A stretch of DNA of 40,697 bases from Chthonomonas calidirosea (GTDB lineage Bacteria; Armatimonadota; Chthonomonadetes; Chthonomonadales; Chthonomonadaceae), in the NCBI GenBank assembly GCA_945878775.1, contig CAMCUQ010000010.1:1-40697 (forward strand), in the 5' to 3' direction. The position numbers and the translations under genes are program-made. Below, one piece after another: positions 5,585 through 38,684 of the stretch (its first letter is position 1; every line of letters begins with the position of its first letter). The notes beneath the pieces are model-generated. The model saw only the letters and a program-made list of their open reading frames with translations, was not told where the DNA came from and did no database searches.

Positions 5585-5631
5585 CACGTCCACGCCCTTA
5601 GGTGCACTTTGCACCTAAGGGCGTGGACGTG
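5585..5631. repeat. 22-bp perfect inverted repeat overlapping the ferredoxin stop
   Basis: Positions 5585-5606 and 5610-5631 are exact reverse complements with a 3-base loop. The right arm covers the stop codon and last codons of the ferredoxin gene, encoding the Pro/Arg-rich tail. The stem is long enough to be a strong transcript-ending or 3'-protecting structure for the minus-strand gene, but no T-run follows on either strand. Confidence 0.75.
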
Positions 5632-11399: not shown

Positions 11400-12929
11400 T
11401 TACTTGAGGCTCCATCCTTTACGGTATTCTCTGGTAAGGAAAGGGCTTTCTTCAGGAAGATTGGTAACTCTTCCTGTCTCCCCATCAAAATGGATACGTT
11501 TGCCTTGCCCAGTGCGCAATGCAGCGACGCCCAGTAGCATGGTCTCAACAAGCGGTCCCGCATATTCAAAGGGGCAAGTCGCTTTTGCTTTTCCAATGAT
11601 CGCGTTTGCCCAGTTAATCCGGTGTTTTGAGCCGCCTTGAGCCTCATTGTCTACAGCAGGGCGTGGGTGCGTCTTTGGAACCTTTTGCGCCTCTTCACGA
11701 AGCCCTATAGGAAATAGTAGCGGGTTTGCCCCATACGTTCCATGCATCAGGACGCCTTTTTCGCCAACCATAAGCACTCCACCACCACGATCAAGAGGTA
11801 TGTTTTCCGGCAACATGTCGGGGCGTGCAGGCATCATGCCACCATCATACCAGTGCATCGTTACGGGAGGCTGATCACCTCTAGCCGGGAAACGGTAGAC
11901 CGCCTGCATTGCCATGGGATAGCTCGCAGGCTCGTTCTTGCTGTCCATGCCAAAGGGTGTGGAGGTCGCCTCAATACTCGTCGGGTACTTTAGCCCCAAG
12001 GCACTATAGGGGTGGTCTATCAGATGAGCACCCATATCCCCCAATGCGCCCGTTCCCCAATCTACCCACCCGCGCCAGTTGAATGGATGATAGATGGGGT
12101 GGTATGGAACCTCTGGAGAAGGTCCCAAAAAGAGATCCCAATTCAGCGTCATCGGGGGCTTTTGCCCTCCGTCCAAGGCTTCGGCAAGCGTAGCGTTGAG
12201 CTTATTGGAAGTCCAATCGTTACCAAAATTGAAGGTTCTACCTGTCGGAGGCGGTGTCTTTCCTGGACGAGAAATGCCTTGGGGCCAGATGGGGCGATTC
12301 GTCCAAACATGGACTTCACGCACAGCACCTATGACTCCTGCCTGAATCCATTCATCAATGAGAGCCGCACCCTCGCTAGAGTGCCCTTGGTTTCCCATTT
12401 GCGTCACGACTTTGGTGCGCTGTGCTGTCTCCCGTAACACGCGTGCCTCTTGCACGCACCAAGCCATCGGCTTTTCGACGTAGACGTGTTTTCCCATCTC
12501 CATCGCCATCTTAGCAATGATCGCGTGGGTGTGATCAGGGGTCGCAATGAGCACCGCATCAATGTCTTTTTGTTGTTCTAATAGTTTGCGGAAGTCCTCA
12601 TAACGCTTCGCCTTTCCATAGGCATCTTGAATGACCTTCGCTCGTGGGTTCGGGCTGCCATCAAACCGTCGTGCCTGTCGTTTTAGAGACGATTCCACAT
12701 ATCCAAAATCAACATCTGCCATAGCAACGAGGTTATGCCCACCAGCAACTAACTCGGTTGCATCCGCCATACCTTGTCCACCACAGCCTACCAACGCAAA
12801 GTTCACGGTTGCACTCGGTGGCTGATAGCGTGGACCACCCAAAACATGGCGTGGAATTATCATTGCACTGAGAGCGGTACCAGATGCTCCAGCCATAAGG
12901 CTGCGTCTGCTCAGTTGTTTGTCTGACAT
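11400..12929 (-). CDS. Gfo/Idh/MocA family oxidoreductase with Tat signal
   Basis: A 509-residue NAD(P)-dependent sugar or cyclitol dehydrogenase-like protein. The N-terminus [17 protein letters not shown] is a twin-arginine signal, so the folded enzyme with its nucleotide is exported. The Rossmann fold follows, with the GCGGQGMAD dinucleotide loop (about residues 48-56), the ATPDHTHA motif and the catalytic-lysine motif EKPMAW. The C-terminal half is the alpha/beta substrate domain, with the [21 protein letters not shown] signature of the secreted bacterial subfamily. Substrates of this subfamily, expanded in Planctomycetota, Armatimonadota and Bacteroidota, include modified glycans. The gene stands alone at 38 bases from its upstream neighbour and is followed by a hairpin. 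Confidence 0.95.
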
Positions 12930-15537: not shown

Positions 15538-15571
15538 AGGGAGGGCGGGAGTGAAAACTCCCGCCCTCCCT
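15538..15571. terminator. Bidirectional terminator, 15-bp perfect stem
   Basis: Arms 15538-15552 and 15557-15571 (agggagggcgggagt and its complement) flank a GAAA loop. On the minus strand the stem is followed by a TTTTTT run, and on the plus strand by a weaker T-rich stretch. It separates two convergent genes. Confidence 0.9.
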
Positions 15572-20537: not shown

Positions 20538-20559
20538 TAGGCTGACAAGGAGTATTCAT

Positions 20560-20593
20560 AGCAAAAAGCCCCGCGTTTGCGGGGCTTTTTGCT
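20560..20593. terminator. Bidirectional rho-independent terminator
   Basis: A perfect 15-bp stem (20560-20574 with 20579-20593) has a 4-base loop, with AAAAA and TTTTT at the stem bases. It serves both the permease operon and the convergent PilZ gene. Confidence 0.92.
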
Positions 20594-20611
20594 ACTTGAA
20601 ATGGAAAAGGA

Positions 20612-22147: not shown

Positions 22148-23557
22148 TCACCTCTTGGAAAACTCGAAGGCAAACAGGTGAGCATTTGTGAGCGTAAACT
22201 GCAAGCGAACAGGTTTCCCGTCCAGAGATACTCCTGCCTTCTTCCAGCGAACAGAATGACGAACCGAGTCTCCTCTGATGGGAACGCAGTCCTTGCTCTC
22301 ATAGCCAGGAAGTGTGCCTCCCTCGGCATCAAGAACGGCGATCTGAAGCGCACCAGTCACATTTGCGTTGACCATAAGGTGCTTGCCTGCAAAACGAAGT
22401 GGATGGGTCAGCAGCGTACCTGTCTCTTTACCTGCGCTCTGTGCTACGTAACGGTCTATTGGGGTACGCGCCAGCCCGATCTGCCGCTCTGTGAAACGCT
22501 CGACTTTATGTCCGCGTTTGTATCCCCCATAGTAGAGATAGAGTTCGTCACCTACAGGCAGTTGGCAATCGACCCAAGACATGGCACGATCCCATGTGCC
22601 CGGTAGCACATTCCTATCAATAAAAGGGGTTTTGTCCCGTGTCCAGTTCTCTCCATCATGGCTCCAGGTCAACGTGGTATAGCCCAATCCTGCGATTTGC
22701 CCTCCTGGTTCGGCGGGCAAATCATCACGCAGCACCCGCGCCATGCCGATAAGTAGCTCACCCCTTGCCAATACGCCCCCCATGCAGTAGAACTGAGTTT
22801 CTCCTTCGTCCTGCCCGTCTGGCGCAACGATACGATGCGGGGTAGACCAGTGCAAAAGGTCCGAGCTTTCACTCTGATAGGTCACTCTCCGTTGCCCGCT
22901 CCATGCCTTGTCTGCCAAGTACATTGAGACATTAGCGACATAACGCTTGCGGATCGGATCATAGTAGAGGTTATTAATGTCGTGATTATGCTTCAAAACG
23001 GGATCTGTTGCGAGTTTCGTCCAGCTTAGCCCATCGGGAGAGACGGCAATTTGCAATCCGCCATTGTGCCACCATGCGTATTTGTATCGTTGTTCTGGAT
23101 GCGGGTATTTTGCCCCTTCATCAAGGATGCTAGCCCCGAACTGTATCGCACTGGGGTCTTTCAAAATGCGATGGGGACGCTCCCAGTGGATCCCATCCGA
23201 TGATTCCATTGTTGCGAGGTGGCTCTGGCTTGCATTTTCAGGAACGCCGTACCAGATCCGAAAGCGTTTCGCATGTGCATCCTGAATGACTGTAACATAC
23301 GGCTGAAAGCACTTATCCTCTAGTCCCGTGATAACGGGCAGTGGCAGGCGTTTCGGGAGGACAAGCTCTCTCTGAAGGTGACTCTGCTCTGCGATCAAGT
23401 AGGAATCCAGAAAAAGGTGCGGTCCAGTGCCGAGAGTGCGTAACTTTACGGCAGTTTGTGGCATCGCGATCTCTCCATTCCCACCACTCCAGAGGAAGCA
23501 GGAGCTAGCGAATTGTTTTAAGAACGTGCGTCGCGCATTTTCGTGAGTGTGAGGCAT
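22148..23557 (-). CDS. Tat-exported beta-propeller protein, glycosidase-like
   Basis: The start is ATG 23557, preceded by GGAGGG; an in-frame start 27 codons upstream has no such site. The N-terminus ENARRTFLKQFASS is a twin-arginine signal. The 469-residue body has repeated W/Y-rich blades, such as RFRIWYGVPENASQSHLATMESSDGIHWERP, SPDGLSWTKL, YQSESSDLLHWSTP and WSHDGENWTRD. This is the '(S)(D/S)DG-x-x-W' pattern of five-bladed propellers in the GH32/GH43/GH130-like superfamily. Several acidic residues could serve catalysis, but I cannot name the triad. A beta-sandwich-like C-terminal part follows (about 390-469). It probably acts on, or binds, an extracellular glycan. Confidence 0.8.
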   Translation of the reverse strand: MPHTHENARRTFLKQFASSCFLWSGGNGEIAMPQTAVKLRTLGTGPHLFLDSYLIAEQSHLQRELVLPKRLPLPVITGLEDKCFQPYVTVIQDAHAKRFRIWYGVPENASQSHLATMESSDGIHWERPHRILKDPSAIQFGASILDEGAKYPHPEQRYKYAWWHNGGLQIAVSPDGLSWTKLATDPVLKHNHDINNLYYDPIRKRYVANVSMYLADKAWSGQRRVTYQSESSDLLHWSTPHRIVAPDGQDEGETQFYCMGGVLARGELLIGMARVLRDDLPAEPGGQIAGLGYTTLTWSHDGENWTRDKTPFIDRNVLPGTWDRAMSWVDCQLPVGDELYLYYGGYKRGHKVERFTERQIGLARTPIDRYVAQSAGKETGTLLTHPLRFAGKHLMVNANVTGALQIAVLDAEGGTLPGYESKDCVPIRGDSVRHSVRWKKAGVSLDGKPVRLQFTLTNAHLFAFEFSKR

Positions 23558-23885
23558 ATGAATTCCCTCCTCTAGAGAACCTTGTGTTTGAAAGCGTATT
23601 CCGTATTCAGCAAGCGAACTCCTGCGGAAAACATTCAATTATCCGATTGCATTCACTCGACTATCGAGCGAGCACCTTTCTCATTTGAGGTAGCCCAATT
23701 TCACATCAGTAAGTGCCACGCATTGCGATTAGGCTCTGCAAACGAGAGCCGTAATGCCTTTTTTGAGGGCAAAGCCAAACGTTTCATCGCCTCCAACGGA
23801 TCAAGTTTTCAGGAACGGTTTCAATTCTTCCTCTTTTCGAGTATAATAGCAGGGTTATTTTTAGGAATCTATTAGGAGGAGTAGT
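23558..23885. other. Divergent intergenic region
   Basis: The 328 bases between the propeller gene (minus) and the winged-helix-repeat gene (plus) contain no supportable gene. They hold the ribosome binding site of the former (23565-23570, minus strand). A small hairpin at 23732-23750 (ggctct/agagcc) is followed eight bases later by TTTTTT, a weak terminator or attenuator candidate. The promoter and leader of the latter are also here. Confidence 0.55.
23842..23879 (+). promoter_or_regulatory. -10 box and ribosome binding site of the winged-helix-repeat gene
   Basis: A perfect TATAAT lies at 23842-23847, with no clear -35 box 17 bases upstream. It is followed by AGGAGG at 23874-23879, six bases before the GTG start. 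The inferred leader would be very short, about 30 bases. Confidence 0.55.
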
Positions 23886-28911: not shown

Positions 28912-28977
28912 TAGACGTGAGGATGTACGCAACTACTTGCATGGGCTTGTAGTCAAGCCATACCACACTATCAAAGC

Positions 28978-29013
28978 AAACCTCCCCACATCGCATTCGG
29001 TGTGGGGAGGTTT
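28978..29013. terminator. Bidirectional terminator, 13-bp stem
   Basis: AAACCTCCCCACA (28978-28990) pairs perfectly with TGTGGGGAGGTTT (29001-29013) around a 10-base loop. It lies between convergent genes and has T-ends on both strands. Confidence 0.88.
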
Positions 29014-29043
29014 GTGTATTTTCGTTCTAATAGCAAGCAGTGA

Positions 29044-32386: not shown

Positions 32387-33070
32387 ATGAACCACGGTAT
32401 TTCGCATACACAACATCAAACTTTTGTAGCGCAAGCGAACCCCTTTGTACGCGCAGCCTTCATTCGCCAAGTGTACGGGCTGCTATTTGGGTCACTCGTG
32501 CTCACCGTCTTTTCGGGGTTCTTCTGCACACAGGAGACGATGCTCCCACTGATCGTCGATATGTATCCGATGCTGATCATTGGTGAGATTGTTTGCATGC
32601 TCATCTTGAGCTTCACGCGCCGAACCACGGGCATAAACCTGTTCATATTTGCCATTTTCGCGGCACTTTTGGGGGCGGTATTGGGTCCACGCCTGCTCAT
32701 GCTCAGCAGAAGCGCGCCCGGTCTTCCTATGACGGCGGCGGCGATCACGCTAGGCGTTTTTGGTTTCCTCACCCTCTACGTCTTCATCTCACGCAAAGAC
32801 TTTAGCTTTATGGGTGGAGTGCTATTCGTAGGGCTGATCGGACTCCTGATATCCGGTATTATGCTCGCCTTCTTCCCTGTGTCGGGGCTATCGGTCCTCT
32901 ACAGTCTATGTGGGGTAATGATCTTTAGTGGCTATGTCCTCTATGACACCTCCATGATCATGAATCGACTCCAGCCGGGGCAAGCTATCGTTGGAGCCAT
33001 TGAACTGTATCTTGATCTAGTCAACCTATTTCTGTTCATCCTACGCTTGTTGAGTGGTCGTCGTGACTAA
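32387..33070 (+). CDS. Bax inhibitor-1 family membrane protein (YccA/YbhL-like)
   Basis: A 227-residue protein with seven hydrophobic segments. The family signature is clear: FVRAAFIRQVYGLLFGSLVLT at the first membrane helix, SGYVLYDTSMIM with the conserved aspartate, and the closing AIELYLDLVNLFLFILRLL. Bacterial members form pH-sensitive ion (calcium) leak channels or interact with FtsH. GGAGGAG before the ATG defines the start. The following DUF1501 gene begins 19 bases later, so the two share a transcript although no functional link is known. Confidence 0.95.
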   Translation: MNHGISHTQHQTFVAQANPFVRAAFIRQVYGLLFGSLVLTVFSGFFCTQETMLPLIVDMYPMLIIGEIVCMLILSFTRRTTGINLFIFAIFAALLGAVLGPRLLMLSRSAPGLPMTAAAITLGVFGFLTLYVFISRKDFSFMGGVLFVGLIGLLISGIMLAFFPVSGLSVLYSLCGVMIFSGYVLYDTSMIMNRLQPGQAIVGAIELYLDLVNLFLFILRLLSGRRD

Positions 33071-33089
33071 GCCGGAGGGTCGATACGCA

Positions 33090-34508
33090 ATGAAACAGGG
33101 TCAACCTCATATTCCTGTGAACCTCTCCCGTCGTGAAGTGATCTGTCGTGCCGGGGGAGGTTTTGGAGCGTTAGCACTCTCCGCGCTTCTCGCGGAGGAT
33201 GAGGCACGTTCCGATAGTTCTACAAAGCAACACGGAACCCACTTTCCCGCAAAAGCGAAATCTGTTATCTGGCTCTTCATGGAGGGTGGTCCCAGTCATA
33301 TAGACCTCTTTGACCCCAAGCCTGCCTTGCAACGGCTCGCCGGAAAACCGCTTCCTGCCTCCTTCGGTCGCCCTATAACCGCCATGGGAACTGCGGAAAA
33401 CGCTCTTCTCCCCTCCAAGCGCATCTTCAAACAGCACGGACAGAGCGGTCTTTGGGTCTCCGATTGGTATCCTGAAATCGCAAAACATGTGGATGATCTC
33501 ACTGTTATTCGCTCCTGTTGGGCAGATGGACTCAACCACGTTGGTGGTGTCGGACAAATGAACACTGGTGCGGTTCTCAGCGGGCGTCCGTCGTTGGGCG
33601 CATGGGTGCAGTATGGTTTGGGCAGTGCCTCCCGTGACCTTCCCACCTTTGTGGTTCTCCTGGATGATCGAGAGCCTATTGGTGGCGCGAAGAACTGGTC
33701 TAGTGGATTTCTGCCCGCCGCCTTTCAGGGAACCCAGTTTCGCCCCGATGGAAACCCCATTCTTGCCCTCAAGCCACCTGCCACGATTGGCGACGAACAA
33801 CAGAAGAATAAGCTCGACTACATCACCACGTTGAACCGGCACTTTGGGGAAACCCGACAGGACGATTCGGAACTGGAGGCGCGGATCAAAGCCTACGAAC
33901 TGGCGTTCCGTATGCAGTCTGCGGCTCCAGAAGCCATAGACCTCTCCAAAGAATCGGCTGCCACAAAACAACTCTATGGCTTGGATAACAAGCGAACCGC
34001 AACTTTTGGCGCAAACTGCCTCATGGCGCGTCGGCTTGTGGAGCGTGGAGTACGATTTGTGCAACTCTATTGTGGGACAGGTAGCCAGTGGGATGCTCAC
34101 TCCGATCTCGAAGGCAACCATTCGCGCCTCTGCGCCGTCTCAGACAAGCCCGTCGCAGGGCTTCTTGCCGATCTAAAAGCACGCGGAATGCTGGATGACA
34201 CCCTTGTGATATGGGGCGGAGAGTTTGGCAGAACCCCAATGACGGAGGGAACTACAGGGCGCGATCACAATCCTTGGGGCTTCTCGGTCTTCATGGCAGG
34301 CGGGGGCGTGAAAGGCGGACAGGTGATCGGCTCAACAGACGAGGTGGGTCTCCGCGCTGCCGAAAACCCCGTTCATGTCCATGACCTCCACGCCACGATT
34401 CTTCACCTCATGGGCTTTAATCACCGTCAACTCACCTATCGACATGATGGACGTGAAGAACGGGCTACAGTAAACGGCGGAAATGTCGTCAAGTCTGTCT
34501 TTACGTAG
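33090..34508 (+). CDS. DUF1501 protein (sulfatase/phosphatase-like fold), exported
   Basis: The 472-residue product starts at ATG 33090 after CGGAGGG. A twin-arginine-like leader (SRREVICRAGGGFGALALSALLA) is nearly the standard Planctomycete form. The domain has WLFMEGGPSHIDLFDPKP near the N-terminus, HVGGVGQMNTGAVLSGRPSLGAW, the C-terminal EFGRTP and GRDHNPWGFSVFMAGGG, and a final VHVHDLHATILHLMG. This is the alkaline phosphatase/sulfatase superfamily pattern, with His/Asp metal ligands apparently intact. DUF1501 genes usually sit beside DUF1549/DUF1553 cytochrome-like partners; none is here. The substrate is unknown. The gene is followed within 42 bases by an IS3 remnant. Confidence 0.93.
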   Translation: MKQGQPHIPVNLSRREVICRAGGGFGALALSALLAEDEARSDSSTKQHGTHFPAKAKSVIWLFMEGGPSHIDLFDPKPALQRLAGKPLPASFGRPITAMGTAENALLPSKRIFKQHGQSGLWVSDWYPEIAKHVDDLTVIRSCWADGLNHVGGVGQMNTGAVLSGRPSLGAWVQYGLGSASRDLPTFVVLLDDREPIGGAKNWSSGFLPAAFQGTQFRPDGNPILALKPPATIGDEQQKNKLDYITTLNRHFGETRQDDSELEARIKAYELAFRMQSAAPEAIDLSKESAATKQLYGLDNKRTATFGANCLMARRLVERGVRFVQLYCGTGSQWDAHSDLEGNHSRLCAVSDKPVAGLLADLKARGMLDDTLVIWGGEFGRTPMTEGTTGRDHNPWGFSVFMAGGGVKGGQVIGSTDEVGLRAAENPVHVHDLHATILHLMGFNHRQLTYRHDGREERATVNGGNVVKSVFT

Positions 34509-34563
34509 CACTACTAGCACTGCAAACGAATACTGGACTTCCTCTGGTTTGGTGGACACCAGG

Positions 34564-34772
34564 TTAAGCAACCATCTGTTGTTGATATTTTAGCTCAAAA
34601 GCATCGGGACTAAGATATCCCAACGACAAATGCCTTCGCTTCCTGTTGTACCAAACCTCTATCCAACGAAACAGAGCCGTGCGCGCCAACCGCTTCGAGA
34701 GACTTGAAGCGCCCTGCAGAGCGCGGCGAGAGAGTAGTCGTCGCGATGTTTGTGAAGGAACGGGTATCTCAA
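34564..34772 (-). pseudogene. IS3 orfB transposase, middle deleted
   Basis: The first piece opens at TTG 34772, overlapping the orfA stop in the -1 style normal for IS3. It reads LRYPFLHKHRDDYSLAALCR then ALQVSRSGW, the N-terminal HTH of orfB. In another frame the C-terminus appears: FRWIEVWYNRKRRHLSLGY then LSPDAFELKYQQQMVA and a stop at 34564. The join falls at about 34675-34695. The DDE catalytic core (roughly 170-200 residues) is absent and the frames no longer match, so the gene is dead. Confidence 0.85.
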
Positions 34773-35053
34773 CGCGGGCGAGAGCTGAAGATACCCACGG
34801 CTTTTTTTAGGATTTCCACCTCTTCACGGAGCCGGGTCACTTCACGTTCGAGTTGCGCTCGTTCGGGGTCGTGGGAGTTCCCCTGTCCGGGAAAGGGATT
34901 GCCAGACGTTTCCGTCAGAGCCTTCTTCCAGCGTTGCAGGACGGTAGCGCAGGCATCAAGTTTGTGCGCAGTTGCGACCAGATTGCCGCGCTCTATGGCG
35001 AGGCGAACCGCCTCCCGTTTGAACTCTTCCGTATAGATTTTTCGTTCCGGCAG
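34769..35053 (-). pseudogene. IS3 orfA, start codon lost
   Basis: The 94-codon frame reads PERKIYTEEFKREAVRLA, a helix-turn-helix with LQRWKKAL, then NPFPGQGN and the leucine zipper LEREVTRLREEVEILKKA, and stops at 34769. This is a nearly complete IS3 orfA (helix-turn-helix plus leucine zipper, TEEFKREAV start). The codon before the first conserved residue is CTG and no ATG, GTG or TTG precedes it in frame. An ATG one base out of frame suggests a small indel destroyed the start. Confidence 0.8.
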
Positions 35054-35138
35054 AACATTCCTCGCTTTCCTAGAGTGGATTACCCCATACGCGATGAATG
35101 CTTAACTGATTGTACACTGTTTCTGGGGAAGTCCACCA

Positions 35139-35506
35139 CCATTACGTGCAAGGTCAATAAAGAGAGGTCTCTTCGTCACAAATACACCGTTAATACCCAT
35201 AGGTGCGAGATTAAAATTCAAGAAAAAACAAAGTGCATATCTTACAGTGGGGCTCCCGACAACCCTTTCCCTACATACTTTTGCTATAAGGAGATAACTG
35301 AAGTTGGAACATGGGGTAAAGCAACCAAACACATCTGTGATAGTGTTCTCTTGGTATATCGTGTTGAATGTCCAGCAAGCCCCATTTCTTCATCTTTCAC
35401 GAAAGTAGAAAAGATAACAATGGAATACCCCAAATCATGCAACCCTGGTTTAAGTGGATGCTCATTCGAACAAATCTTTCCTCTCTATGGTAGATACAAC
35501 AAGTAG
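35139..35506 (+). pseudogene. C-terminal remnant of a Cys-rich protein cut by the IS element
   Basis: Directly beyond the IS right end a frame of about 120 codons stays open to TAG at 35506. It contains many Cys (ITCKVNKE, HRCEIKIQ, TKCISYSG, TYFCYKEI, KHICDSV, RVECPAS, KSCNPGLSGC). The even spacing looks like an extracellular disulfide-bonded domain. It has no start codon of its own close to the junction except through the IS sequence, so it is most likely the end of a gene whose 5' part was lost by the insertion or an earlier rearrangement. It is AT-rich like the next genes, and its stop lies seven bases before their first start, so it was probably the first member of that operon. Confidence 0.5.
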
Positions 35507-35513
35507 CGAGACT

Positions 35514-36524
35514 ATGCTGATTTCACGAAGAAATTTTAATCGAGCGATAGTGTACACATTTTGTAGTGTATCCCTCGTAAGTGTCTTCTTTGCCTTATGG
35601 AGGAGCAAGCCCTCCATAAGGGGGTATCCATTGCACCATAATTATTTGAGAGCTGGCAGTGAATATTGGTATTCCAACCATGAGATAGTGTATTGGAATT
35701 GGGATCAAACCCCGCCCCAACTCACCCTTCAGGATATAACCACTTGGAAAAGCACAACTTTTACGCCTGTGTCGAAGGCAATGGAGTACGATGCCCGTGC
35801 ATTTTACATTTCGCCAAATAGGAGGCAAATTCTCTCTCGTAAATTGGATACTAGTCTAACCTCCATGGTGATTGATTGGCAGGGAACTCATAAGGAGGTT
35901 TGGAGTAATCTTGATAATAACAGGGTAGGAATGTTTTGGGCATTGGATAGCCAGAGTTGGGTTGAGGTTATCCCTGTATCTAGTTCAACGGACGAGACAC
36001 AACGTCACCCAAAAGTATATGATGTCGTTGCACATGACCTCGGTACGAAGGCAGTTCAAAAGACGCGCATTTACCTTGAACAGAAAAATCAATACTCCTG
36101 GATGCAGATACCGAGTTTCCACTCACTCGTTTTCGTCCAAGAGGTTGCGCTCTATAACACGCGTACAGAACCTCTTGAACTATATATCCTCACCTTCCAA
36201 AAACATACCCATTCACTACAGAAGCAGAAGTTTATTATCCCCAATGAGTTAAATGTCTTGAGCCTTCATGTGTCCCCAAATGGGAAGTCTATCTTATGGG
36301 TTTTAAGTCCTTATCCTGCAATCACGGGATTACGTAATCCGCAAATGACTTTATGGATAGGCAACCTAAAAAGCGAAGAATTACACTTCGTTACTACGTT
36401 ACCAGATCAGGAGTATGATGCTACACAAAGGAACTGGAATACCGCATGGCTACCAGATGGACATCATATTAGCTTTACAAATAATAACACCTTGTATGTT
36501 ATGAGTTCACGTTACGCAAAGTGA
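35514..36524 (+). CDS. Membrane-anchored beta-propeller-like protein, unknown function
   Basis: I do not recognise a named family. From ATG 35514 the 336-residue product begins MLISRRNFNRA followed by a hydrophobic stretch to about 27, an SRR-type export signal or anchor. In-frame starts at 35454 (GTG) and 35487 (ATG) are possible; none has a good ribosome binding site. The body has repeated short strands with turns such as ISPNRRQILSRK and VSPNGKSILWVLSPY and a final WLPDGHHISFTNNNTLYVMS. This 'SPDG-x-x-(I/L)' pattern fits TolB/WD40-type propellers. The stop TGA overlaps the ATG of a 51-codon gene (TGATG). Base composition is visibly AT-rich (21 G/C of 60 at 35641-35700), unlike the flanking genes, suggesting transfer. 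Confidence 0.7.
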   Translation: MLISRRNFNRAIVYTFCSVSLVSVFFALWRSKPSIRGYPLHHNYLRAGSEYWYSNHEIVYWNWDQTPPQLTLQDITTWKSTTFTPVSKAMEYDARAFYISPNRRQILSRKLDTSLTSMVIDWQGTHKEVWSNLDNNRVGMFWALDSQSWVEVIPVSSSTDETQRHPKVYDVVAHDLGTKAVQKTRIYLEQKNQYSWMQIPSFHSLVFVQEVALYNTRTEPLELYILTFQKHTHSLQKQKFIIPNELNVLSLHVSPNGKSILWVLSPYPAITGLRNPQMTLWIGNLKSEELHFVTTLPDQEYDATQRNWNTAWLPDGHHISFTNNNTLYVMSSRYAK

Positions 36525-36679
36525 TGCGGTTTTTGCTTTACAGTCGGTACGATGTACTCATGGACAAACAGCACTTGGGAAACACCATCCCTGTTGGAGA
36601 GAGCAGTCAAACCACAGACAACGGAATGCTCATCGGAAGGTCGGTTATTCAATGGATAATAGGGAATATTCTAAGATGA
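36524..36679 (+). CDS. 51-aa small protein in a coupled operon
   Basis: This frame begins at the ATG that shares its first base with the upstream stop (TGATG, 36522-36526). It ends with a TGA that overlaps the next gene's ATG (ATGA, 36676-36679). Both junctions are classic translation-coupling overlaps, and their coincidence is the main argument that the gene is real. The product starts MRFLLYSRYDVLMDKQ, has a polar Ser/Thr/Gly-rich centre (GESSQTTDNG) and ends with a hydrophobic helix (VIQWIIGNILR). There is no recognisable domain. It could be a small partner of the flanking exported proteins. Confidence 0.55.
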   Translation: MRFLLYSRYDVLMDKQHLGNTIPVGESSQTTDNGMLIGRSVIQWIIGNILR

Positions 36680-37602
36680 TTAGCCGCAGAGCATTTTTGT
36701 CCTCGTTGATTACAACAACATCTATTGTAGTTCATGAAGAGCCTATATTTGCCCTGAACACCTCTTTATATAAAGCCTCTCTTCAAACACATGTGGCTCG
36801 AATACACACCCGTGTTCCTCACGCCTCAACTCTAGCTTTCGCGTTGGTTGACTGGTCACATGAACCAGTAATTTTTTCTTTAAATTTACTGTCGGACACA
36901 ATATTGTTTGTGCGTAGACCGATCCATTCAGAGCCTTTACGACGCCTTAATTCTGTTCTCTTATCTCGTATCAATGAGCAGGTAAGGATAAGCACCAAAG
37001 GCGGTTCTATAAAAAAGGGGAGAAGTGATTTGGCGGAACACCTACAAAGCCTTACTTCTATTACATGGGAATGGAACGCTTCATGTGCGTCTAAAGGTGT
37101 GACAGTTGCTGTAGACTTGAAATATCTGTTAAAGCAGCACAACGCAGTATCAGCCCGAGCATGGCTCACTACTGTTACAAAAGCGCGGCTAGATACAGCT
37201 CAGTGGTGGGAAGAGTTCGCGAAACGTTCTTTAGAGAGTTGGTTATCTGGCTTTAGTTCACTCATTGCTTTAGTCATTCGGATGCAATGGGATAAAGACG
37301 GTGCGAGTTTGTTGACACAGGCACGTCATTTGGAGAAGTCATTGAGTGAAAATTTACCCTTGCAGATAATGGCAGGATGGTATGCTTGCCTGCTTGATTT
37401 GGACAGTAGGGAATCTGACGACATTCTGCCGCTCAAGGATTTTCTGGCTCATTATAAAGCTTCCGGGGACTGGCGTGTTGTTGAGGTAGCAAAGGATATG
37501 ATTGCAAGCATCAAATACAGGCAACGTGTTCTTGACGGTTGGTTTTGGTCACCTATTCGACGCCCACAGCATTGGAATACGTTCATATCCACTCTACACT
37601 AA
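36676..37602 (+). CDS. Exported protein with twin-arginine-like leader, unknown function
   Basis: The 308-residue product starts at ATG 36676, four bases overlapping the 51-aa gene; a start eight codons earlier (36652) is possible. The leader MISRRAFLSSLITTTSIVV resembles a Tat signal and matches the N-terminal style of the gene two places upstream (MLISRRNF). The mature part begins with beta-strand-like segments (LAFALVDWSHEPVIFSLNLLS). It is mainly helical from about 120 on, with WW and WLSGFSSLIALVIRMQW helices and a Trp-rich end (GWFWSPIRRPQHW). No enzyme motif is visible. AT-rich like its partners. No terminator follows at once. Confidence 0.7.
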   Translation: MISRRAFLSSLITTTSIVVHEEPIFALNTSLYKASLQTHVARIHTRVPHASTLAFALVDWSHEPVIFSLNLLSDTILFVRRPIHSEPLRRLNSVLLSRINEQVRISTKGGSIKKGRSDLAEHLQSLTSITWEWNASCASKGVTVAVDLKYLLKQHNAVSARAWLTTVTKARLDTAQWWEEFAKRSLESWLSGFSSLIALVIRMQWDKDGASLLTQARHLEKSLSENLPLQIMAGWYACLLDLDSRESDDILPLKDFLAHYKASGDWRVVEVAKDMIASIKYRQRVLDGWFWSPIRRPQHWNTFISTLH

Positions 37603-37856
37603 TTATCCTAATGGTGGTTTTACTCACGACATTGCTTAGGTGACGCTTCCTTCTGGTGGTAATTTGCAGTATTGGGCTTCCCCCGAATCTGGGCTCTCCC
37701 TCGCTTTGGGTGCATATGACATACCCACCAGCGTCTATGAAGGGGATCGCTAACCAAATAAACCGCATGCAAGGTGATCAAGACAGTAACGGAACATTTA
37801 GGGCTTCCTACCTTCACCGAATATGAGGGAGAGCCGAATAGAGGTAAACAAGGGCA
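37603..37856. other. Intergenic stretch with decayed-looking coding fragments
   Basis: No gene can be supported in these 254 bases. The plus strand has two short open fragments in different frames: GTG 37641 (37 codons, reading VTLPSGGNLQYWASPESG) and ATG 37738 (29 codons, reading MKGIANQINRMQGDQDSNG). Neither has a ribosome binding site. They may be remains of a degraded gene. The promoter of the downstream dioxygenase should also lie here, but I cannot name it. Confidence 0.45.
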
Positions 37857-38684
37857 ATGAGTACTTTCGCTATCAGTCCAGAGCAGGTCAGCGAATACGA
37901 CCGGAACGGTTTTCTCCTCTTTAAGGGGTTTTTCGATCCTGCGGAGGTCGCAGAGCTACGCAACGCCTTTATGCAACAAGCGGAGCATGGTCCTGTTCCC
38001 AATCTCTCGGACACTATCCCAAACCTCTCTCCTGATGACCCCCTCTCCCGTTATCCAAGAATGTTGCACCCCCATCGTCATCATGAGCTTCCGGTTGGCG
38101 CACTCTCTTTGCGTTATCTCTTAGATACTCGCCTAGAGACGATACTTCGCGCACTTTTTGAGGATGATCCTATTGCCGCACAAACGATGTTCTATTTTAA
38201 GCCCCCCGGAGCGCGGGGGCAAGCCCTGCACCAAGACAACTTTTATTTGCGGGTGAAGCCCGGAACCTGCATCGGAGCGTGGCTTGCCATTGACGACGCA
38301 ACACCCGAAAACGGAGGCTTAGTAATCGTTCCACAGTCACACCGCCTCGAAATCCTCTGCCCGACTTCCGCCGACATTACTCGCTCTTTCGTAACCGATC
38401 AAGTTCTTGTGCCGGAAGAGTTCACAGAGCTTCCCCTCCACTTGAACGCGGGTGATATGCTCTTTTTTCATGGCAACCTAATACACGGTTCGTACCCTAA
38501 TGAGAGCCAAACAAAGTTTCGTCGCGCTTTCATCTGCCACTATATCCCGCGCCAAAGCCTGGAAGCCTCCCACTGGTTCGACCCTTTCTTCACATTTCAA
38601 GGCACTCAGATTTCTGTACATGAAGCGGAGGGTGGAGGACCTTGTGGGACGGTACAAACTCGTAATGAGGCTTGGAAGGGATAG
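37857..38684 (+). CDS. Phytanoyl-CoA dioxygenase family protein
   Basis: A 275-residue Fe(II)/2-oxoglutarate-dependent oxygenase of the PhyH family. The metal triad is visible as His125-x-Asp127 (ALHQDNFYL) and distal His210 (LIHGSYPN). Arg222/223 (KFRRAF) is placed to bind 2-oxoglutarate. The start is ATG 37857 after AAGGG, and the length is normal. Substrates across bacterial PhyH proteins range from alkyl chains to antibiotics and osmolytes such as ectoine, so none can be named here. The gene is followed six bases later by a four-helix membrane protein and then a methyltransferase-like gene, suggesting one operon, perhaps for lipid or terpenoid modification. Confidence 0.93.
   Translation: MSTFAISPEQVSEYDRNGFLLFKGFFDPAEVAELRNAFMQQAEHGPVPNLSDTIPNLSPDDPLSRYPRMLHPHRHHELPVGALSLRYLLDTRLETILRALFEDDPIAAQTMFYFKPPGARGQALHQDNFYLRVKPGTCIGAWLAIDDATPENGGLVIVPQSHRLEILCPTSADITRSFVTDQVLVPEEFTELPLHLNAGDMLFFHGNLIHGSYPNESQTKFRRAFICHYIPRQSLEASHWFDPFFTFQGTQISVHEAEGGGPCGTVQTRNEAWKG

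Follow-up and report, generated by a model that had tools for sequence, protein, structure and literature searches.

The AT-rich block at positions 35138–37602 of the window (the whole stretch of 40,697 nt of Chthonomonas calidirosea contig CAMCUQ010000010.1 analyzed here) is best explained, with a probability of about 55%, as what is left of the 3' end of a polymorphic-toxin array of the Rhs (YD-repeat) type, that is, an orphan Rhs-CT module that was beheaded by an insertion sequence (IS) and retains genes for exported partner proteins. Under this scenario, the Rhs protein would have borne a disulfide-rich C-terminal tip, and an IS3-type element together with an associated deletion would have taken the Rhs head, leaving only 122 codons from the 3' end of the tip. 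ORF1, a predicted membrane-anchored propeller, and ORF3, a predicted exported helical protein, would be the genes of exported partners belonging to the tip. The most likely role of these partners would be that of immunity proteins, neutralizing the tip as it arrives at the outer face of the cytoplasmic membrane. What appeared to be a mystery operon would thus become a readable relic of interbacterial conflict. The features of the locus are the following:

34553–35135, minus strand: IS3-type element, internally deleted (translations, ends, Pfam)
35138–35506, plus strand: 5'-truncated Cys-rich frame, candidate Rhs C-terminal tail remnant (openness and Cys statistics)
35514–36524, plus strand: ORF1, transmembrane helix and TolB-like beta-propeller, proposed exported partner/immunity protein (AlphaFold, Foldseek, family in 14 of 17 genomes)
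36524–36679, plus strand: open frame of 51 codons, unlikely to be a gene, ORF1–ORF3 spacer (P of being open by chance 0.22, no Shine-Dalgarno sequence, no relatives)
36652–37602, plus strand: ORF3, Tat-like leader and helical protein, proposed exported partner/immunity protein (five-member family; homologue behind an Rhs tail cassette)
37671–37838, plus strand: dispersed MITE-like repeat of ~165 bp (copies in C91 and C33; fragments in C2 and G002)

An IS remnant truncates a Cys-rich frame upstream of ORF1

A prior sequence-only reading described this region as a cassette of three overlapping frames, and that layout holds. ORF1 (336 aa, starting MLISRRNF) overlaps the 51-aa frame by TGATG, and this frame overlaps ORF3 (36676–37602, 308 aa, starting MISRRAFL) by ATGA. 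The AT-rich composition (GC 0.43 over 35138–37602 versus 0.516 in the remainder of the window and 0.516 ± 0.022 for its 26 background ORFs) and the adjoining upstream IS remnant were also correctly recognized. None of the three frames had been assigned to a family, and Pfam, NCBIfam and PADLOC scans were indeed empty for all of them; an Rfam scan of 34000–38500 gave no match either. The inventory was nonetheless incomplete, as the Cys-rich fourth part at 35138–35506 had been overlooked, and so had the dispersed repeat of ~165 bp downstream of ORF3.

The IS3-type element retains a near-complete OrfA (HTH_Tnp_1, E = 7e-8 in Pfam) and, of OrfB, no more than the C-terminal 41 aa of the integrase (rve_3, E = 9e-5). 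Its ends read TGGACACC and TGGACTTCC, and no matching direct repeat indicative of a target-site duplication was found at them. The end of the element abuts the Cys-rich frame and cuts its 5' side. This frame encodes 122 aa with 8 Cys (6.6%), has a GC content of 0.40, and ends 7 nt before the start of ORF1 on the same strand, so that a putative partner gene, followed by ORF3, lies directly downstream. Its openness is unlikely to be accidental (P ~4e-4 per frame), and at least 8 Cys would be expected with P ~1.6e-4 at the mean (background) Cys rate of the window. The fragment has no credible homologue in 291 genomes of the phylum; weak matches among these were judged to be due to chance, many crossing stop codons and none lying near an Rhs core.

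No Rhs core or repeat was matched anywhere in the window, and the position 5' of the fragment, where the Rhs core and the DPxGL boundary motif would be sought, is occupied by the IS end. Because the Rhs head is absent at the locus, we infer its membership in an orphan Rhs-CT module; the identity of 35138–35506 as an Rhs tip and its putative toxicity are proposed on the same footing.

ORF1 is a predicted membrane-anchored propeller, and ORF3 belongs to a small, genus-restricted family

The AlphaFold model of ORF1, built from an alignment of 21 relatives (pLDDT 78.2, pTM 0.76), consists of an N-terminal helix (2–29) and a beta-propeller. A Foldseek search with this model gave 382 PDB matches at E<=1e-3 and recovered the propeller fold, the best match being oligogalacturonate lyase 3c5m (E = 4e-10), with TolB 7mx5 at E = 3e-7; a sequence search of the PDB returned nothing. 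As modelled, ORF1 is an N-terminally membrane-anchored TolB-like beta-propeller. It has the fold of the TolB/WD40-like (PD40) periplasmic propellers, with TolB structures among the top PDB matches, but differs from them in its N-terminal membrane anchor and an identity of only 8–14%, and it is not TolB proper, having no significant Pfam match and no tol-pal genes among the neighbouring ORFs. The ORF1 family comprises some 40 or more members, scattered and often in tandem, in 14 of the 17 Chthonomonadaceae genomes. Tandem pairs of these propellers (L072 549–2652 and L073 687–2865 in G012; L071 1516–4355 in G015) suggest continuing duplication of the family.

The five members of the ORF3 family all fall within one genus, where 3 of the 4 genomes have them; the remaining genomes among the 291 of the phylum have none. 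The other four are found in C22 and C55 of the same genome, in G003:C621 and in G001:C10; a scan of genome contigs with ORF3 yielded no relative, and an ORF3 profile search of the PDB found nothing. The AlphaFold model, based on a 4-row alignment, reached a pLDDT of 41.5 and was readable only as 'mostly helical'; it was left out of the fold search. The two paralogues in C22 and C55 have no Rhs gene nearby, and the G003 homologue sits at a contig end.

An XRE-TPR regulator is paired with a GGGVPIGKA lipoprotein in similar fashion at L006 10947–13509 (G000:C55) and L024 5090–7647 (G001:C156); an ORF3 paralogue flanks the pair on one side in G000 and an ORF1 relative flanks it on the other side in G001, which may reflect a shared insertion spot or coincidence.

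Homologues of ORF3 and ORF1 directly follow Rhs tails in related genomes

Relatives of both candidate partners are found immediately behind intact Rhs tails, a clear homologue in the case of ORF3 and a distant one in that of ORF1. In the congener G001:C10, an ORF3 homologue with a lipoprotein-like leader (L065 2852–3745) starts 13 nt past the stop of an Rhs tail cassette, which consists of a TIGR03696 core (E = 6.5e-14), ...NLYRYVNNRFVVAIDPSGL and then a 257-aa Cys-containing tail; a new Rhs-repeat gene begins 89 nt after the stop of the homologue. A weak point is that a single ORF3 homologue would be expected next to an Rhs gene by chance with P ~0.03. In a related genus (G004:C127), a Cys-rich Rhs tail is followed 37 nt downstream by the start of a propeller gene whose relation to ORF1 is weak and distant (E = 9e-5 to the 21-member profile), and an Rhs locus in G015:C506 holds two ORF1 relatives. 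Overall, loci of the ORF1 family are not enriched near Rhs genes (1 locus of the profile-selected set, no more than expected by chance), so the argument is built on ORF3 and on the individual cases of direct adjacency.

Rhs cores are present in 16 of the 17 genomes of the family, with up to 44 per genome. In this genus, the Rhs tails have an AT-rich composition and, in many cases, a high Cys content (up to 14%), in which the window fragment resembles them, and the next gene lies close behind, frequently encoding a hydrophobic leader. The AT-rich layout of a tail plus an exported partner also recurs in the same genome as the window, in an Rhs array (C23; L116 1500–7029) with three Rhs cores, several Cys-rich tails and exported partners. 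There, Rhs repeats are followed by a broken repeat frame and then by a headless Cys-rich tail whose stop overlaps a gene for an exported FGE-sulfatase-domain protein by 4 nt; the GC content of the array is 0.453, compared with 0.534 next to it. Both in C23 and in G001:C10, an Rhs core precedes the C-terminal fragment. Inspection by eye further identified ankyrin-type partners behind Rhs tails in G015:C506 and G001:C375. Separately, one Rhs tail (L118 207–1970, G002:C94) contains WCGPG...DAACQKHDQCYKD, which resembles the secreted phospholipase A2 motif, and a gene for an exported 774-aa protein lies 30 nt after it.

Cys-rich Rhs tails may be followed more often by exported-looking proteins

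The comparison covered 75 Rhs tails for which the next gene lies on the same strand (loci L065, L071 and L116–L184); these next genes were called automatically, a few of them doubtfully. A gene was counted as exported-looking if a 13-residue Kyte-Doolittle mean of at least 2.0 occurred in the first 55 aa, a cut first used for background. By this measure, the next gene was exported-looking for 20 of 35 Cys-rich tails versus 11 of 40 others (Fisher p = 0.011; within-genome permutation p = 0.013), at a cut of at least 3% Cys that was one of four tried, the other cut-offs giving p values from 0.001 to 0.10. The rank correlation between Cys content and export was not significant (Spearman p = 0.10). 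Cys-rich Rhs tails go with exported partners more often, which is suggestive and amounts to a testable rule for a poorly studied phylum, in which toxin and immunity protein might act on the envelope side of the membrane.

Alternative explanations

The sequence-only reading took the block for an uncharacterized envelope or conflict system, which would make it a genuine three-gene operon with an essential 51-aa protein, as the TGATG and ATGA junctions, the AT-rich composition and the predicted export of both large proteins would suggest. This explanation is largely refuted and, in our assessment, highly improbable. For the 51-aa frame, a search of 31 genomes from the order turned up no relatives, the best match (E 0.11) falling within a long frame that is unrelated; inspection revealed no Shine-Dalgarno-like sequence before it, and it stayed open in 22% of shuffles of the 125 nt between ORF1 and ORF3 with dinucleotides preserved; its codon statistics (LLR 0.026 per codon) do not separate coding from non-coding. 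Moreover, a second in-frame start for ORF3 lies further upstream at 36652, preceded by GGAAGG; its use would lengthen the protein to 316 aa and turn the 51-aa frame into an ordinary 127-nt spacer. The frame is probably a chance open frame and not a gene, a reminder that TGATG and ATGA junctions can lend chance frames the look of coupled genes. The proposed unit of a small gene plus two exported proteins fares similarly: no other genome searched has ORF1 and ORF3 together, neither an ORF1-like gene nor the small frame adjoins any of the remaining four ORF3 homologues, and homologues of the large genes are found apart and without that frame, the very outcome that the sequence-only reading had named as evidence against it. 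The SRR leader that was thought to tie ORF1 to ORF3 is a Tat-type motif also present in unrelated genes of the window, namely LSRRSLMAG (11400–12929), LSRREVICRAG (33054–34508) and ARRTFLKQF (22148–23638), and therefore does not link the two. What survives of the suggested conflict system is an origin in conflict for these AT-rich exported genes, transferred or shuffled, with a probable Rhs-tail remnant taking the place of a new three-gene system.

At the other extreme, the region could be functionless and decaying, an IS-bounded deletion scar from which gene fragments are being lost. A truncated Cys-rich frame, a deleted IS and a repeat fragment do surround the genes, but both large genes are of full length and carry export leaders, AlphaFold confidently models ORF1 as a complete propeller, and orphan immunity genes are known to be functional without the toxin (PMC3150448). 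We regard decay as highly improbable. A more serious competitor, less likely than the Rhs reading but given about one third of our belief, is that ORF1 and ORF3 represent two lineage-specific exported orphan families without any Rhs tie, whose adjacency in this AT-rich, IS-prone patch is accidental, the Cys-rich frame being a third, unrelated secreted orphan. Such independence would fit the ORF1 relatives, which are mostly far from Rhs genes, the two ORF3 paralogues that stand alone and the homologue-less Cys-rich fragment. It would, however, leave to coincidence the location of an ORF3 homologue between two Rhs genes, right behind the tail of one of them, that of an ORF1-like propeller right behind a Cys-rich Rhs tail, and the truncation of the Cys-rich frame by the IS just 5' of ORF1.

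Relation to known systems

The closest counterparts of the IS-beheaded Rhs-CT module proposed here are the orphan rhs-CT/rhsI modules, in which headless C-terminal toxin fragments are followed by immunity genes, and which are sometimes disrupted by IS elements; their immunity genes can stay functional without the toxin (Poole et al. 2011, PMC3150448; Koskiniemi et al. 2014, PMC3967940). The shared features are a headless tail with an immediate partner, organization in arrays, AT-richness relative to the host in this clade and occasional disruption by IS elements. The locus differs in that no Rhs core or PxxxxDPxGL motif survives in the window, that the tail is Cys-rich in a disulfide-type manner, and that the putative partners are large exported proteins, a propeller and a helical protein, rather than the small ORFs of PMC3150448 and PMC3967940. 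The assignment of ORF1 and ORF3 as immunity proteins, and of two partners rather than one to the tip, is a proposal made by analogy.

Immunity proteins built on repeat scaffolds (Imm-ank, HEAT, LRR) are encoded directly downstream of polymorphic toxins (Zhang et al. 2012, PMC3482391). The arrangement in Chthonomonadaceae appears similar in placing scaffold folds, including the ankyrin-type partners noted above, right behind toxins. In contrast, an exported TolB-like propeller immunity family was not found in the passages of PMC3482391 consulted, and neither ORF1 nor ORF3 falls into a Pfam or NCBIfam family.

Tentatively, the Rhs arrays of Chthonomonadaceae might hold numerous disulfide-rich tips whose site of action is outside the cytoplasm, with immunity proteins exported to match, the present locus being an IS-beheaded relic of such an array. 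The matched immunity proteins could, with equal reserve, include TolB-like propellers, helical proteins, leader-bearing ankyrin proteins and FGE-domain proteins. If true, this would define a branch of Rhs toxin/immunity pairs that has not been described before and in which the two members are matched by compartment.

A dispersed repeat downstream of ORF3 and other features of the window

The repeat at 37671–37838 is bounded by imperfect terminal inverted repeats (GGCTCTCCCTC...GAGGGAGAGCC) and has copies in C91 (L025 10677–10844, 92%) and C33 (L026 257–421, 88%) of the same genome, as well as fragments in C2 and G002. It has a stable predicted fold (z -2.15), a low copy number and no Rfam match, and it is a MITE-like dispersed element. 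A protein-like stretch after ORF3 (NYPNGGFTHDIA, a stop, then VTLPSGG...) was considered as a pseudogene remnant and rejected, as it is partly the start of this dispersed DNA repeat. Elsewhere in the window, self-comparison revealed near-perfect palindromes of 34–47 bp at 5585–5631, 15538–15571, 20559–20594 and 28977–29014, which are probably transcription terminators.
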